DNA from: Agromyces humatus
GTDB lineage: Bacteria > Actinomycetota > Actinomycetes > Actinomycetales > Microbacteriaceae
Direction of reading: 5' to 3'
DNA: 64,000 nt
Assembly (NCBI RefSeq): GCF_021228295.1
Contig: NZ_JAJQPD010000013.1
Span: 1 to 64,000, forward strand
The notes beneath the pieces were generated by a model, which saw nothing but the letters and a program-made list of their open reading frames with translations, made no database searches and was not told where the DNA came from. The position numbers were made by a program, and so were the translations under genes. This document shows, in pieces, positions 32,102-38,583 of the stretch. How positions within the stretch are numbered: the first letter of the stretch is position 1; every line of letters begins with the position of its first letter.

Positions 32102-32127
32102 GTCGGTTCAGTATGCACGAAAACGGC

Positions 32128-32133
32128 TACGCT
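32128..32133 (+). promoter_or_regulatory. Leaderless promoter -10 box of ppx/gppA
   Basis: TACGCT, 6 bases (CGCAGT), then the ATG at 32140. It is identical in hexamer and spacing to the hemolysin III promoter at 17477. Confidence 0.6.
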
Positions 32134-32139
32134 CGCAGT

Positions 32140-33066
32140 ATGCGCCTCGGGGTTCTCGACGTCGGTTCCAACACCGTGCACCTCCTCGTGGTCGACGCCC
32201 ATCGCGGCGCACGGCCGATCCCGATGTCATCGCACAAGTCGGTGCTGCGACTCATGCGCTATCTCGAGGCCGATGGCGCGATCAGCGACGAGGGCGTCGC
32301 GGCGATCATCTCCGCGGTCGGCCACGCGGCGGCGATCGCCCGCGAGTCGGGTCTCGATGAGTTCCTCCCCTTCGCGACCTCGGCCATCCGCGAGGCCGCC
32401 AACGGCGAAGAGGTGCTCGACCGCGTCGCACGCGAGACCAGCGTCGAACTGCAGGTGCTCCCCGGCGAAGACGAGGCGAACCTGACCTTCCTCGCCGTGC
32501 GGCGCTGGTACGGCTGGTCGGCCGACAACATCCTGCTCTTCGACATCGGGGGCGGCTCGCTCGAACTCACCCAGGGTATCGACGAGGTGCCCGACGTCGC
32601 CCGCTCGGTGCCGCTCGGCGCCGGTCGCTCGACCGTGGAGTTTCTTCCCGACGATCCGCCCTCCGAAGACCAGGTGGCGCGCCTGCGCGCGCACGCGCGT
32701 GAGCTGCTTTCCGGCGAAGTCAACGCCTTCCGCCAGCTGCCCTCGCCAGACCACGTGGTCGGTTCCTCGAAGACCATCCGTTCGCTCGCACGGCTCGCGG
32801 GTCACGTCGCCGAGGGCGTCGGGTCGAGCGAACGCTACGTGCTCACCCGAAGGGGCCTCGACGACTGGACCCCGCGCCTCGCGAAGATCCCGGCCGACTC
32901 ACGACCCGCCCTGCCCGGCATCACCGCCGACCGCACGTTCCAGATCGTGGCGGGCGCGGTCGTGCTCTCCGAGGCCATGCGGGCATTCGACGTGCGCGAA
33001 CTCGAGGTGTCGCCCTGGGCGCTGCGCGAAGGACTCATCCTGCGTCGGCTCGACGTCATGGAGTGA
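32140..33066 (+). CDS. Ppx/GppA family exopolyphosphatase
   Basis: This 308-residue sugar-kinase/actin-fold phosphatase acts on polyphosphate or pppGpp. It has the phosphate-1 motif [15 protein letters not shown] (3-17), the catalytic-glutamate region [14 protein letters not shown], the phosphate-2 motif [13 protein letters not shown] and a final [11 protein letters not shown]. This short form lacks the C-terminal HD-like domain, like mycobacterial Rv1026/Rv0496, which are exopolyphosphatases acting on short chains. The ATG at 32140 is set by the TACGCT-N6 promoter. It is divergent from a TetR operon and is followed by a tRNA gene on the other strand. Confidence 0.93.
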
Positions 33067-33083
33067 TGAGTCGGGCAGCACGG

Positions 33084-33157
33084 TGCTCCCGCTGGGATTC
33101 GAACCCAGACTGAGGCGAGTTTAAGTCGCCTGCCTCTGCCGATTGGGCTACGGGAGC
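33084..33157 (-). tRNA. tRNA with UAA anticodon (Leu by anticodon) but class I structure
   Basis: The 74-base gene folds as a normal cloverleaf: a 7-bp acceptor stem (GCTCCCG with CGGGAGC), a D arm with GG in the loop, the anticodon stem GGCGA/TCGCC with loop CTTAAAC, a 5-base variable loop TCAGT, the T arm CTGGG-TTCGAAT-CCCAG and discriminator A. CCA is not encoded. The anticodon at the normal position is TAA, which reads UUA leucine codons. Bacterial leucine tRNAs normally carry a long variable arm (class II), and this one does not. The gene lies convergent to ppx in the gap before the NADH dehydrogenase gene. The tRNA call is firm; the amino acid identity is uncertain. Confidence 0.9.
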
Positions 33158-33191: not shown

Positions 33192-34673
33192 CTACTTCGC
33201 GGCGACGGGTTGCGCGCTGGCAGCCTTCGCAGCGGACTTCGACTCCTTCGCCCCGCCGGCGTGCGGCTCGAGCGCCGCCTTGGCCTTGGGCGCGGCGTTC
33301 TGAGGCGCGGATGCCGCGGGGGCGGCCTTCGGCTGCGGTGCGGCCTCGGCCGCGAGCTTCGGTCGGGCGGCGAACGCCTCGAACTGCGCCCGCGGCTGCT
33401 GCACCGCGGTGAGCGAGACGATGTCGCGGCCGAGCCAGAAGTTGTTCCACCAGCCCCAGAACACGCGGAACTTGCGCTCCCAGCTGGGCATGGCGAGGCC
33501 GTGGTAGCCGCGGTGGGCGAACCAGGCGATGAGGCCCTTGAGCGCGATGTTGCCCGACTGGAACACGCCCGAGCCGATGCCGAGACCGGCGACCGCGCCG
33601 AGGTTCTTGTGGATGTACTCCTTGGGCTCTTCGCCGCGCAGCACAGCCACGATGTTCTTCGCGAGCAGCTTGCCCTGACGCACGGCGTGCTGCGCGTTCG
33701 GCACGCAGTAGCCGCCGACGCCGCCGCCCGTGAGGTCGGGCACCGCGGCGATGTCGCCCGCCGCCCAGGCATCGGACACCCAGTCGTCTTCGTCGCCGAC
33801 GCGCAGGTCGGCACGGGTCAGGATGCGGCCGCGCTCTTCGACGGGAAGGTCGCTCGAGCGCACGATGGCCGGGTTGGCCATGACACCCGCGGTCCACACG
33901 ATGAGGTCGGTCTCGAAGCGCTCGCCGGTCGACAGCTCGATGTTGCCGTCGACCGCGCTCGTCAGCTGCGTGTCGAGGTGGATCTCGGCGCCGCGCTGGG
34001 CGAGGTGCTTGATGACCCAGTGGCTCGTCGGCAGCGAGACCTCGGGCATGATGCGGCCCATGGCCTCGATGAGGTGGAAGTGCGTGTCGTCGAAGGTCAG
34101 CTGCGGGTAGAACTCGAGCAGCGAGCTCGCGAACGAGCGCAGCTCGGCGAACACCTCGATGCCGGCGAAGCCGCCGCCGACGACGACGAACGTGAGCAGT
34201 CGATCGCGCTCGGGACCGGCCGGCAGGTTCGCCGCCTTGTCGAAGTTGGTGAGCACGCGGTCGCGGATGGCGACGGCCTCTTCGATCGACTTCAGGCCGA
34301 TGGCGTTGTCGGCGATGCCAGGGATCGGGAACGTGCGCGAGACGGCTCCGCCGGTGACGACGACCACGTCGTAGTCGAAGTCCCACGGCTCACCGATCTC
34401 GGGAGTGATCGTCGCGGTCTTCGCCGCATGGTCGATGCGGGTGACCTTGGCGGTGATGACGCTGGTCTTCTTGAGGTGACGACGCTGCGAGACGACGGAG
34501 TGCCGCGGCTCGATCGACCCTGCAGCCACCTCGGGAAGGAACGGCTGATAGGTCATATACGGGAGCGGGTCGACGACCGTGACCTCGGCCTCGCCGGGTC
34601 GGAGCCACTTCTCGAGCTTCCACGCGGTGTAGAACCCGGCATAGCCGCCACCGACAATGAGAATCTTGGGCAC
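33192..34673 (-). CDS. ndh: Type II NADH dehydrogenase
   Basis: This membrane-associated single-subunit NADH:quinone oxidoreductase does not pump protons. The 493-residue protein has the FAD-binding GGGYAG (8-13), the NADH-binding VVVGGGFAGIE (163-173), the quinone-site-like region VGGYCVPNAQHAVRQG and the C-terminal amphipathic membrane anchor around FWGWWNNFWLGRDIV. The last 65 residues form a low-complexity Ala/Lys/Pro tail, which is unusual for the family and probably disordered. The GTG at 34673 starts the canonical MPKILIVGG. GAGGAG lies 11 bases upstream. An in-frame GTG at 34712 is less likely. Confidence 0.95.
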   Translation of the reverse strand: MPKILIVGGGYAGFYTAWKLEKWLRPGEAEVTVVDPLPYMTYQPFLPEVAAGSIEPRHSVVSQRRHLKKTSVITAKVTRIDHAAKTATITPEIGEPWDFDYDVVVVTGGAVSRTFPIPGIADNAIGLKSIEEAVAIRDRVLTNFDKAANLPAGPERDRLLTFVVVGGGFAGIEVFAELRSFASSLLEFYPQLTFDDTHFHLIEAMGRIMPEVSLPTSHWVIKHLAQRGAEIHLDTQLTSAVDGNIELSTGERFETDLIVWTAGVMANPAIVRSSDLPVEERGRILTRADLRVGDEDDWVSDAWAAGDIAAVPDLTGGGVGGYCVPNAQHAVRQGKLLAKNIVAVLRGEEPKEYIHKNLGAVAGLGIGSGVFQSGNIALKGLIAWFAHRGYHGLAMPSWERKFRVFWGWWNNFWLGRDIVSLTAVQQPRAQFEAFAARPKLAAEAAPQPKAAPAASAPQNAAPKAKAALEPHAGGAKESKSAAKAASAQPVAAK

Positions 34674-34708
34674 GGTGAAATGGACTCCTCGTTTGCTTGA
34701 ACGTGCGA

Positions 34709-35998
34709 TCACTGTTCGCGAATGCGGACAGTCCGCCTGAGATGCCGAGTGGCGCCGATGCCCAACAGCGCTCCTATCGTACCAAATCCAGCGACCAACG
34801 AGAGCGGGACCGTGATATACGCGAGGGTCCAGGGCGTCGGGAGGAGCGTGTCCGTCGCATCCTCGTCTGGCAGGGGCGGATCGGCTATGGGGACGATCTC
34901 GGCATCCTCAGTCGACGGAGCCGGGGTCTCGCCCGCCGCTCGCCGGTGCAGGGTGATCCATTCGGCGAGGCTGCCGAGCGGGTTCTCGTCGACCGTCTCG
35001 ACGTCGGACTCCAGCGCCGCGACGGGGTCGATGAGCCCGAATCCGTACAACGCGCTCGGCACCTCGCGGCCGTTCGGATCGGCCGTCTGGATGACCCGTT
35101 CGATGACGTTGGCGGCGTCGAGCTCGGGGTACTCCGATCGCACGAGGGCGACCAGCCCTGAGACGAGTGGTGCTGCGCCGCTCGTGCCGCTCCAGATCGC
35201 GACGCGCCCGTCGGGTTGCACGCCGACGAGGTCTTCGCTCGGCGCGGCGACCGCGATCGAGATGCCCTGCGAGCTCGCGTCGAGGCTCGCGTTCTTCTCC
35301 TTGTCGACGCCCGCGACCGTCAGGACCCCGGGGATGGTCGCCGGGGCGCCGACCTCGCTCGTGCCGTTGCCCCGGTTGCCGGCCGCCGCGACCACGACGA
35401 CGTCGTTCTCGAAGGCGTACGTGAACGCGTCGTCCCAGCTCTCGGGCCAGTCGCGGGTGTTGCGGGTGAGCGACATGTTGATGACGTCGGCACCGTTGTC
35501 GACCGCCCAGCGAACGCCCTCGGCGATCTGCTCGTCGTTCGTCTTCTCGGCACCGGTGTCCTGACCGAAGGCGACCGACACGGCGAGGATCTCGGCCTCG
35601 GGCGCGACGCCGATGACGCCACTGCCCTCACCCGTGCCGCGACCGGCGAGCAGTGAGGCGACCATGGTTCCGTGCGCACTGTCGTCGGGATCGCCGACCG
35701 GGGTCTGCCCGTCGGGAGTGCCGAGGCCCGAGACATCCGTGCCGCCAGTGACGACGCCGCGCAGCTCGGCGACGTTGCCGTTCACACCCGTGTCGATCAC
35801 GGCGACGGTGACTCCCTCGCCGCGCGAGGTGTTCCACGCGGTCGTGAAGCCGTAGTCGCCCAGCCAGTACTCGTAGTCGCGCACCGTGTCGGCCTGGGCC
35901 GGCGCGGCTCCGGTGAACACCATCGCGCCCACCGCGGCGGCCGCTGCAGCGATGCGCGCCGTGCGCGCGAGGGGACGGAGACGTTCGCGCCGGGTCAT
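34709..35998 (-). CDS. Membrane-anchored S8 subtilase, mycosin-like
   Basis: This 429-residue secreted serine protease starts with a signal peptide ending AQA (36). The subtilase domain has the triad D69 (VAVIDTGVNG), H109 (DSAHGTMVA) and S273 (SGTSGAAPLVSG), with the oxyanion N208 in AAAGNRG. One C-terminal membrane helix (about 394-416) and a short basic tail anchor it outside the cell, as in mycosins. No type VII secretion gene is in the window, so mycosin function is not implied. It is the third gene of an overlapping chain after ftsB and DUF501 (ATGA overlap with the latter), which ties it to envelope or division genes. The substrate is unknown. Confidence 0.92.
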   Translation of the reverse strand: MTRRERLRPLARTARIAAAAAAVGAMVFTGAAPAQADTVRDYEYWLGDYGFTTAWNTSRGEGVTVAVIDTGVNGNVAELRGVVTGGTDVSGLGTPDGQTPVGDPDDSAHGTMVASLLAGRGTGEGSGVIGVAPEAEILAVSVAFGQDTGAEKTNDEQIAEGVRWAVDNGADVINMSLTRNTRDWPESWDDAFTYAFENDVVVVAAAGNRGNGTSEVGAPATIPGVLTVAGVDKEKNASLDASSQGISIAVAAPSEDLVGVQPDGRVAIWSGTSGAAPLVSGLVALVRSEYPELDAANVIERVIQTADPNGREVPSALYGFGLIDPVAALESDVETVDENPLGSLAEWITLHRRAAGETPAPSTEDAEIVPIADPPLPDEDATDTLLPTPWTLAYITVPLSLVAGFGTIGALLGIGATRHLRRTVRIREQ

Positions 35999-36558
35999 CC
36001 GCTCAGCTCTTCGGATGTCTCGTCGACGGCCGGCTCGGCGGGCTCGTCGACCCCGTAATCGGGGCACTGGCACACCGCGGGCGACCACGACGAGCGCTCG
36101 AGCGCGAGGTCGCCGATGGGGTTCGCGCCGGGCCCGGCGGCCAGCGAGTGCGCGGCGAGCGCGTGCAGGCACTTGACCCGCGTGGGCATGCCGCCCGCCG
36201 AGATGCCGGCGATCTCGGCGACCTCGCCGAACAGGCCGCGATCGGTGAGGAAGTCGCCGTGCGCACGCCGGTAGGCGGTTCGCACGTCGGCGTCGCCGGC
36301 CAGCAGCTCGGTGCACTCGACCATGAGCTGCGCCGCCTCGAGGAACGACATCGCAGCCGTCGCGACCGGGTGCGAGAGGTAGTAGAACGTCGGAAACGGG
36401 GTGCCGTCGGCCAGCCGAGGCGCCGTTGCCACGACCGTGGGCGCGCCGCACACGCATCGGGCGGGGATCCCGACGACGTCGCGCGGGCGCCGGCCGAGCT
36501 GTGCGGTGACGATGCGCAGGTCGCGCTCCGAGACCGGGCTGAAGGGCGGGCGGGTCAT
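35995..36558 (-). CDS. DUF501 protein
   Basis: This 187-residue protein belongs to DUF501, a family found in actinobacteria between ftsB/divIC and ppx. Visible features are a CVCGAP cysteine pair near residue 35, TFYYLSHP, MPTRVKCLHALAAHSLA and a late CQCPDYG. The four or more conserved cysteines and histidines suggest metal binding, but no reaction is known. It overlaps the ftsB stop and the protease start by four bases each, so the three proteins are translationally coupled. In M. tuberculosis the equivalent (Rv1025) also follows the divIC-like gene. The C-terminal 20 residues are acidic and variable. Confidence 0.92.
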   Translation of the reverse strand: MTRPPFSPVSERDLRIVTAQLGRRPRDVVGIPARCVCGAPTVVATAPRLADGTPFPTFYYLSHPVATAAMSFLEAAQLMVECTELLAGDADVRTAYRRAHGDFLTDRGLFGEVAEIAGISAGGMPTRVKCLHALAAHSLAAGPGANPIGDLALERSSWSPAVCQCPDYGVDEPAEPAVDETSEELSG

Positions 36559-37172
36559 CGGTCGCCCTCTCCGGCTGCGGGCGCGCCCGTCGCCGGGTCG
36601 ACGGGGGGCGTCGCCGGGTCGGTCGCGGCCGGCGCGAGCCCCGCGGTCATCACGGAGTCGAGCAGCGTGCGCATCCAGTCGCCCTTCGTTTCGGTCACTT
36701 CGGCCGAGACCTCGGTCGCGGCATCCGCCGCGGTTCCCGCCGCCCGGTCGTCGATGACGAGGTAACTCACCTCGCCCGGCATCACGTAGTAGAGGCGCTC
36801 ACGTGCCTGCGTCACGATGTACGTCTCGTCATTCCAGCGCTCGCGCTCGTCGCGCAGCCGCTGCACCTCCTCCTCTTGTGCGGAGACGGCGGCGCGAAGC
36901 TCCGCGATCTGCTGCCGTTGCTGCGCGTACGCCGCGATCGACGGCGCCAGCACCACGACGGCGAGCACGAGTATGCCCATCATGATGAGCGAGAAACCTG
37001 AGAATCGGATGCCCCTGAGCCATCCCGCGCGTGCAGGATCGGTCGCGCCGCCCGAATTCGTGCGCGCGGCGGCCCGCGGTTCGGGCGGAGCCGACCGCTT
37101 TCGAGCGCGCGGCGACCGGTCGCCGGCAGGATTCGCCGGGCGGCGGGGTGTGCGGGCGGAATCGCCGTTCAT
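36555..37172 (-). CDS. Septum formation initiator FtsB/DivIC family protein
   Basis: This 205-residue bitopic divisome protein has a basic, disordered cytoplasmic N-terminus (1-55), a membrane helix (about 58-82) and an extracytoplasmic coiled coil (about 84-112) followed by ERWNDETYIVTQARERLYYV, the FtsB/DivIC core. A Pro/Ala/Thr-rich tail ends the protein. Such proteins bridge FtsQ and FtsL-like partners and stabilise the septal synthase. The ATG at 37172 is directly preceded by GAGGAGG. In-frame starts further upstream run through the terminator of eno and are unlikely. It is the first gene of the ftsB-DUF501-protease chain. Confidence 0.92.
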   Translation of the reverse strand: MNGDSARTPRRPANPAGDRSPRARKRSAPPEPRAAARTNSGGATDPARAGWLRGIRFSGFSLIMMGILVLAVVVLAPSIAAYAQQRQQIAELRAAVSAQEEEVQRLRDERERWNDETYIVTQARERLYYVMPGEVSYLVIDDRAAGTAADAATEVSAEVTETKGDWMRTLLDSVMTAGLAPAATDPATPPVDPATGAPAAGEGDR

Positions 37173-37201
37173 CACCCTCCTCGTCGCCGGCCCGGAGACC
37201 A

Positions 37202-37233
37202 CGACGGGGGTGGCCACGCGGCCACCCCCGTCG
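37202..37233. terminator. Terminator hairpin between eno and ftsB
   Basis: CGACGGGGGTGGCC (37202-37215) and its exact complement (37220-37233) with loop ACGC. The perfect 14-bp stem lies 15 bases after the eno stop and 30 bases before ftsB. It should end most eno transcripts, with ftsB expressed by read-through or its own promoter. No T-run is present. Confidence 0.75.
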
Positions 37234-37248
37234 CTGTCAGCTACGCGA

Positions 37249-38583
<1,335 letters not shown>

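Follow-up and report, generated by a model that had tools for sequence, protein, structure and literature searches.

A class I tRNA-Leu(UAA) is the only UUA reader found in Agromyces humatus, and class I and class II forms interchange in Actinobacteria

Results

A class I tRNA with leucine identity

The stretch of the Agromyces humatus genome that was analysed (the window, 64 kb) contains a tRNA-Leu(UAA) gene that is built on a class I frame. Textbooks regard a long variable arm as characteristic of leucine tRNAs. In spite of its short variable loop, it is very likely that this gene supplies the cellular tRNA-Leu(UAA) of the organism, which would be charged by LeuRS and would read UUA as leucine on the ribosome. 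It is the only UUA reader found in A. humatus. Far from being peculiar to A. humatus, the short form occurs commonly in Actinobacteria.

ARAGORN finds a single tRNA in the window, a tRNA-Leu(taa) at 33082-33157 on the minus strand, and the Rfam tRNA model matches 33084-33157 on the same strand with 58 bits (cut-off 29). The 74-base tRNA with UAA anticodon and 5-base variable loop given in the preliminary description is thus confirmed by both programs. As a standard program calls the gene a tRNA-Leu, the object is not hidden. Its parts are listed here, with the identity elements of the D arm taken from the available part of a 2023 review (PMC9976931).

33084..33157, minus strand: class I tRNA-Leu(UAA), 74 nt (ARAGORN, Rfam, identity test, stem conservation)
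33131..33148, minus strand: D arm GCCCAATCGGCAGAGGCA (positions 10-26), leucine-type, with A14, A15, G18G19, A20a and a 3-bp stem
33121..33123, minus strand: anticodon UAA, within the loop CUUAAAC (ARAGORN)
33109..33113, minus strand: variable loop UCAGU, 5 nt, the last base of which, U48, pairs with A15 (Rfam alignment)
33084..33084, minus strand: discriminator A73

The cloverleaf had been described as clean. This holds for the acceptor stem (7 of 7 pairs), the anticodon stem (5 of 5) and the T stem (5 of 5); in the Rfam alignment, the D stem has three pairs and one mismatch. After A73 the DNA encodes no more than the CC of a CCA end. The free energy is -34.5 kcal/mol (z of -3.94 against 200 shuffles), and the minimum free energy fold differs from the exact cloverleaf. 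The UAA anticodon is placed within an intact cloverleaf, as in a bacterial tRNA-Leu(UAA), and the variable arm has 5 nt where class II tRNAs have at least 10 nt. Sigma-70-like promoter and intrinsic-terminator patterns were looked for near the tRNA gene and none were found.

The positions of the acceptor, anticodon and T stems pair in 97.7-100% of 131 distinct class I Leu(UAA) sequences, most of them with several pair types, so the cloverleaf is conserved and not a product of chance. Such conservation in relatives had been named beforehand as a point on which the proposal would depend. A73 and U48 are invariant in all 131 parsed sequences. The invariance of the D arm and the anticodon loop in this set is no evidence, because both were fixed by the scan pattern for most sequences, and the D arm also by the parser.

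Leucine identity elements were compared across all 45 distinct tRNAs that ARAGORN recognised in A. humatus. According to the available part of the review, A73, the A15-U48 pair, G18G19 and A20a are required by E. coli LeuRS; A14 is named too, and the variable arm is dispensable for leucylation in E. coli (PMC9976931). Our test called for A73, A14, A15, U48 and the leucine D-loop frame, and part of its D-arm component was devised after inspection of the leucine tRNAs. It was passed by five of the 45 tRNAs, which are exactly the five leucine tRNAs (four of class II and the class I UAA tRNA). The latter has A73, A14, A15-U48, G18G19 and A20a. The nearest look-alike in the D loop is Lys(CTT), which is one nucleotide short there, and the lysine and arginine tRNAs of A. 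humatus are without the leucine D-loop frame. Among class I UAA genes, 154 of 157 also pass; 118 of the 157 were obtained from loci that had been picked up by a pattern with a fixed D arm. Two of the three failing genes (L174, L176) have an ARAGORN start that is shifted by one base, and the third is a degenerate second copy in L171.

We propose that LeuRS would recognise A73 together with the corner of D loop and T loop (A14, A15-U48, G18G19, A20a and the 3-bp D stem), and that these elements would need no long variable arm. The charged tRNA would then read the very rare UUA codon as leucine.

The tRNA inventory of A. humatus

The 4.04-Mb genome of A. humatus (16 contigs) has 46 matches to the Rfam tRNA model, 45 of them above the cut-off. 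When these loci were typed by ARAGORN, 45 distinct tRNAs were obtained, and the one match below the cut-off was not called a tRNA. The class II leucine tRNAs are CAA (85 nt), CAG (87 nt), GAG (85 nt) and UAG (84 nt), and the fifth leucine tRNA, UAA, is the class I gene of the window. A whole-genome scan for a second, class II tRNA-Leu(UAA), as had been suggested, detected none among the 45 typed loci above the cut-off and the one below, so that the class I gene is the only UAA tRNA found. The genome codes for one full-length LeuRS.

Rfam and ARAGORN, both in plain mode, overlooked a 46th tRNA, Lys(UUU), the gene of which contains a group I intron. As plain searches missed this gene, a second UAA tRNA that is split is still conceivable, and the case for this gene being the sole UAA tRNA is strong without being complete. 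The split gene is located at G000:C5:26495-26823 (L400:4996-5324), with the intron (Rfam RF00028, 60.9 bits, cut-off 50) in the anticodon loop, and is mislabelled as Asn(gtt) by ARAGORN in intron mode. The surrounding stretch measures about 6.6 kb, compared with about 0.6 kb in the relative G008, where the tRNA-Lys(UUU) is unsplit. The plain Lys(UUU) pattern is also absent from G002 and G003.

UUA aligns with leucine but is very rare in A. humatus

The meaning of UUA was assessed from the residues that are aligned with TTA codons in rpo and ribosomal regions. One frame was used per place; pairs below 45% identity were left out, as were target residues with a TTA codon of their own. An earlier version of the analysis had counted spurious overlapping frames and was noisy (TTA to Leu 67% in IMCC26103 and 43-62% in four other genomes).

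The most informative genome is that of IMCC26103 (G431, complete, 1.46 Mb), which carries a class I UAA gene (L091) and uses UUA in rpo and ribosomal genes. Its 33 TTA sites correspond to 111 aligned residues in five other actinobacteria, 94 of which (85%) are leucine, and 15 more are Met, Ile or Phe. The other five leucine codons are aligned to leucine in 72-76%. There are 38 tRNA matches in this genome, and as its six long tRNAs are Leu(TAG), Leu(GAG), three Ser and Tyr, it has no class II UAA tRNA among them. These alignments indicate that UUA is leucine in an organism that has the class I form and no class II UAA tRNA.

In A. humatus itself the test is empty because UUA is too rare: there is one aligned TTA site, which is opposite Phe. 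TTA sites are also too few to judge in Rothia (2 sites, 2 of 5 residues Leu), Corynebacterium (3 sites, 3 of 4) and G025 (2 sites, 4 of 4), and there are none in Mycolicibacter. The scarcity of UUA that had been anticipated for a high-GC genome was borne out. Among the 1,799 leucine codons of the predicted genes of the window (49 genes, chosen by our own GC3 rule) there is at most one TTA, which is found inside an over-long subtilase frame where this overlaps DUF501. A further 400 kb of A. humatus, about one-tenth of the genome, has 16 TTA among 10,704 leucine codons, distributed over at most 15 of 326 predicted genes. This rarity fits the GC content of 70% and does not in itself point to regulation.

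The class I form is widespread in Actinobacteria

A DNA search with the window tRNA gave a match in 40 of 40 genomes (A. humatus included). According to ARAGORN, the matched locus is a class I Leu(UAA) in each of the 24 congeners; across the other families of the order this is so for 13 of 15 genomes. One of the two exceptions is G038, where the matched locus is a class I Leu(CAA) and the UAA tRNA is class II. The other is G027, where the matched locus is a Lys(UUU) tRNA.

When one genome per species was scanned with the class I pattern, at least 119 stretches were found. Among the matches listed, 118 of 119 are class I Leu(UAA) genes according to ARAGORN and the remaining one is broken by the locus end. 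The taxa among the matches listed include Mycobacterium, Nocardia, Rhodococcus, Corynebacterium, Arthrobacter, Streptosporangium, Geodermatophilaceae, Nanopelagicaceae and Acidimicrobiaceae. There are also a few MAGs with the labels Rokubacteria, Deltaproteobacteria, Planctomycetota, Acidobacteria, Pyrinomonadaceae and Chloroflexaceae, which are possibly wrong. The preliminary description had left room for the structure being simply the standard one across the family. This is what we found, as it is the usual form in the genus and the order and occurs well beyond. A form private to the species or the family is ruled out by its presence across the order and in mycobacteria, nocardias, corynebacteria and Acidimicrobiia.

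Across a sample of 396 genomes of the phylum, 55 have a match to the strict class I pattern and 246 to a looser one, which covers both arm types; the 246 include chance matches. From 150 matches listed (hand count), 127 genomes were kept after 23 entries had been discarded by eye (chance matches without tRNA stems and one duplicate copy). Among these listed matches, 47 genomes from 11 families have the class I form and 80 genomes from 32 families the class II form. One family among the matches listed has genomes of both kinds, and none of the 127 kept genomes has a class I together with a class II UAA tRNA. The looser pattern undercounts class II, because all 11 sampled genomes of one family (f18) were missed by both patterns, though two of them carry class II UAA genes.

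Additional degenerate or partial copies of the gene were encountered in three genomes. Pseudonocardia endophytica has a second, degenerate Leu(taa)-like gene (L171, 3900-3971) at a distance of 3.4 kb from the intact copy, which is matched by its 3' half. In G019, the 3' part of the tRNA (query 47-74) is repeated twice just downstream of the gene (G019:C1:3272817-3273028), which might follow repeated integration at the tRNA. A 23-base copy of the 3' part is found about 1.6 kb away in G006.

The gene shares its neighbourhood with class II UAA genes, presumably bldA in two genomes

The genes around the tRNA form a conserved neighbourhood, for which enolase was used as an anchor.

32113..33066, plus strand: Ppx/GppA phosphatase (Pfam PF02541), convergent with the tRNA, stop codon 17 bp from A73
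33192..34712, minus strand: pyridine nucleotide-disulphide oxidoreductase (Pfam PF07992), conserved neighbourhood, 34 bp upstream of the tRNA on the same strand
35995..36558, minus strand: DUF501 gene (Pfam PF04417), conserved neighbourhood
36555..37301, minus strand: DivIC-type septum formation gene (Pfam PF04977), neighbourhood
37249..38529, minus strand: enolase (TIGR01060, 655 bits), neighbourhood anchor

Upstream of the tRNA, the order on the minus strand is oxidoreductase (NDH-2-like by our own labelling), subtilase, DUF501, DivIC and enolase. In the window, Ppx has an unusual position, beyond the tRNA and facing it. We located enolase in six other genomes and mapped the neighbourhood genes and all ARAGORN tRNAs. 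Two of these genomes (G061 and G144) we take to be Streptomyces and their UAA gene to be bldA, partly from codon and sequence type. Both have, on the same strand, a class II tRNA-Leu(UAA) of 85-86 nt, which lies past the oxidoreductase gene at a distance of about 6 kb. The class II tRNA-Leu(UAA) of G241 lies past this gene at 182 bp, that of G038 at 76 bp. In G025 and the mycobacterial G432, a class I gene is on the same strand and the same side of the enolase, DivIC, DUF501 and Ppx genes, and no match to the oxidoreductase was found within the examined stretch.

As the class II UAA genes of G061, G144, G241 and G038 occur in the same enolase neighbourhood, the window tRNA looks like the positional counterpart of bldA with another architecture. 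The comparison with bldA that had been drawn beforehand thus holds in one respect, chromosomal position: neighbourhood and strand are shared with the two genomes assumed to be Streptomyces, and the class II architecture is not.

At least one of the enolase, DUF501, oxidoreductase and Ppx genes occurs within the locus stretch in 89 of 138 class I loci (20 of them from the genus), and none of the four in 49. In 41 loci the oxidoreductase is directly upstream, within 400 bases. The counts of loci with these genes are lower bounds because the loci have at most 8 kb. The cluster is on the opposite strand in L110, L125, L167 and L183.

Class I and class II architectures are interchangeable

While A. 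humatus has a class I UAA and a class II CAA tRNA, the UAA tRNA is class II and the CAA tRNA class I in G038, and both are class I in G032, G033, G036 and G037. The long leucine tRNAs of Mycolicibacter (G432) are only GAG, UAG and CAG, which agrees with the available part of a report on M. tuberculosis, where tRNA-Leu-2, -3 and -5 have long loops (PMC11541572). Since the window gene is found at a locus that holds a class II tRNA-Leu(UAA) in some other actinobacteria, the two architectures replace each other at one locus.

Short-loop leucine tRNAs also occur in phages. The window tRNA matches 134 phage records at the DNA level, and when viral sequences were scanned with the class I pattern, ARAGORN recognised a class I UAA gene in 119 of 120 stretches among the matches listed. 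Two phage records were examined: one codes for a class I Leu(CAA), the other for a class I Leu(UAG) and Leu(CAA), but for a class II Leu(UAA). Two tRNA arrays were noticed in MAGs. One (L176, 74-4667, labelled Pyrinomonadaceae) has 21 tRNAs including four short-loop leucine tRNAs (TAG, AAG, CAA, TAA) and looks like a mobile or phage-type tRNA cluster. The other (L118, 56-4411, labelled Chloroflexaceae) has 26 tRNAs; among its leucine tRNAs, CAA and UAA are class I, and GAG and CAG are class II.

For the origin of the class I form, sequences were compared with omission of the variable arm, part of the D loop and the anticodon. Class I UAA sequences have a mean identity of 0.70 to Arg(ACG), 0.67 to Lys and 0.66 to Asn. 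For class II UAA tRNAs the means are lower, at 0.635 (G038), 0.628 (G241) and 0.564 (G144). The A. humatus tRNA, outside the variable arm, has 0.73 identity to its own Arg(ACG) and 0.70 to its own Lys(CTT), and 0.59 and 0.63 to the class II Leu(UAA) of G241 and G038. The values lean towards a class I tRNA having acquired leucine elements and taken over, more than towards an arm that was lost in place, but constraints common to class I tRNAs could produce these identities as well. A tRNA tree (62 columns, midpoint-rooted) is mixed and weak. Our tentative scenario, which we regard as quite possible but short of probable, is an in-place switch between class II and class I at the bldA locus, in which a mobile class I leucine tRNA lineage shared with phages probably took over, as opposed to the arm being simply lost, with the actinobacterial LeuRS serving both forms in one cell.

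Discussion

Most probably, this tRNA is charged with leucine and decodes UUA despite the lack of a class II arm, because the identity set is confined to leucine tRNAs in A. humatus and UUA is aligned with leucine in IMCC26103. Together with the finding of no other UAA tRNA, this favours the leucine tRNA of unusual form among the readings offered in the preliminary description. That the tRNA is charged with another amino acid (e.g. Arg or Lys) and recodes the rare UUA is very improbable. Outside the variable arm it is closer to its own Arg(ACG) and Lys(CTT) than to class II Leu(UAA) tRNAs, and the sole aligned UUA site of A. humatus faces Phe. However, the lysine and arginine tRNAs of this organism do not have the leucine D-loop frame, the leucine identity set persists in 154 of 157 class I UAA genes, and of the 111 residues aligned to UUA in IMCC26103, 94 are leucine and a further 15 are Met, Ile or Phe, so that this reading found no support. 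Neither did a non-decoding role, and a non-decoding or decaying tRNA-like gene seems to us the least probable of all. It would account for a variable arm that is unexpectedly short for a UAA anticodon, but the stems are held by compensatory change in 131 distinct sequences, and as the gene is the only UAA tRNA found, UUA codons would be left without a known reader if it were absent.

A mainly regulatory, bldA-like role, in which late or limited supply of the tRNA gates a few UUA-containing genes, is somewhat less remote, though still unlikely. The codon is very rare (at most 1 of 1,799 in the window and 16 of 10,704 in the further 400 kb), and the gene appears to be the positional counterpart of class II UAA genes in Streptomyces-like genomes. 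Yet the rarity of UUA follows from the GC content of 70%, and UUA is present in rpo and ribosomal genes of IMCC26103. According to the available part of a study of TTA codons, these show no bias to gene starts outside Streptomycineae and are sometimes found in growth-associated genes (PMC4255298).

We found no literature description of a class I tRNA-Leu(UAA) in Actinobacteria in a search that most subscription papers are outside of; partial hints come from the available parts of the M. tuberculosis report (PMC11541572) and of a paper on a mycobacterial tRNA cluster, which mentions a short-loop tRNA-Leu(TAG) (PMC6582537). The 2023 review, as far as available, treats the long variable arm as the rule for leucine tRNAs, with exceptions only in animal mitochondria (PMC9976931). 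Short-armed leucine tRNAs are counted in a general tRNA set, the available part of which does not name actinobacterial ones (PMC2474678). If the architecture switch is true, the long-arm rule outside animal mitochondria would fail for a large part of a phylum. A widespread natural bacterial exception, which occurs beside long-armed leucine tRNAs in one cell, would provide a clean test of what LeuRS needs. As the locus appears to be shared with a bldA-type gene, it becomes askable how a regulatory and an ordinary tRNA replaced each other. A missing arm, which the available part of a study of human tRNA-Leu reads as a sign of the wrong isotype (PMC8450103), should not be taken as such a sign.

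Comparison with known systems

With bldA, the class II tRNA-Leu(UAA) of Streptomyces, the window tRNA shares the UAA anticodon, A73, the strand and the eno-divIC-DUF501-ppx-oxidoreductase neighbourhood, the compared genes being presumably bldA. It differs from these bldA-type genes, which have 85-86 nt, a long variable arm and a GGTGGAA D arm, by its 5-nt loop and TAGCCCAA. A73, A14, A15-U48, G18G19 and A20a are common to canonical class II tRNA-Leu of the E. coli type, whereas the window tRNA lacks the long variable arm, has A9 for G9 and a GCC/GGC D stem.

Animal mitochondrial tRNA-Leu(UUR) is likewise a leucine tRNA without a long arm, with identity via A73 and A14 according to the available part of the review (PMC9976931). 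It is, however, organellar and is served by a different synthetase, and we do not claim a common origin. The short-loop leucine tRNAs of phages and tRNA clusters have the same class I frame, with UAA, CAA or UAG anticodons. Those copies are accessory and occur in arrays, whereas the window tRNA is encoded by a fixed gene on the chromosome, with no other UAA tRNA found in the genome.
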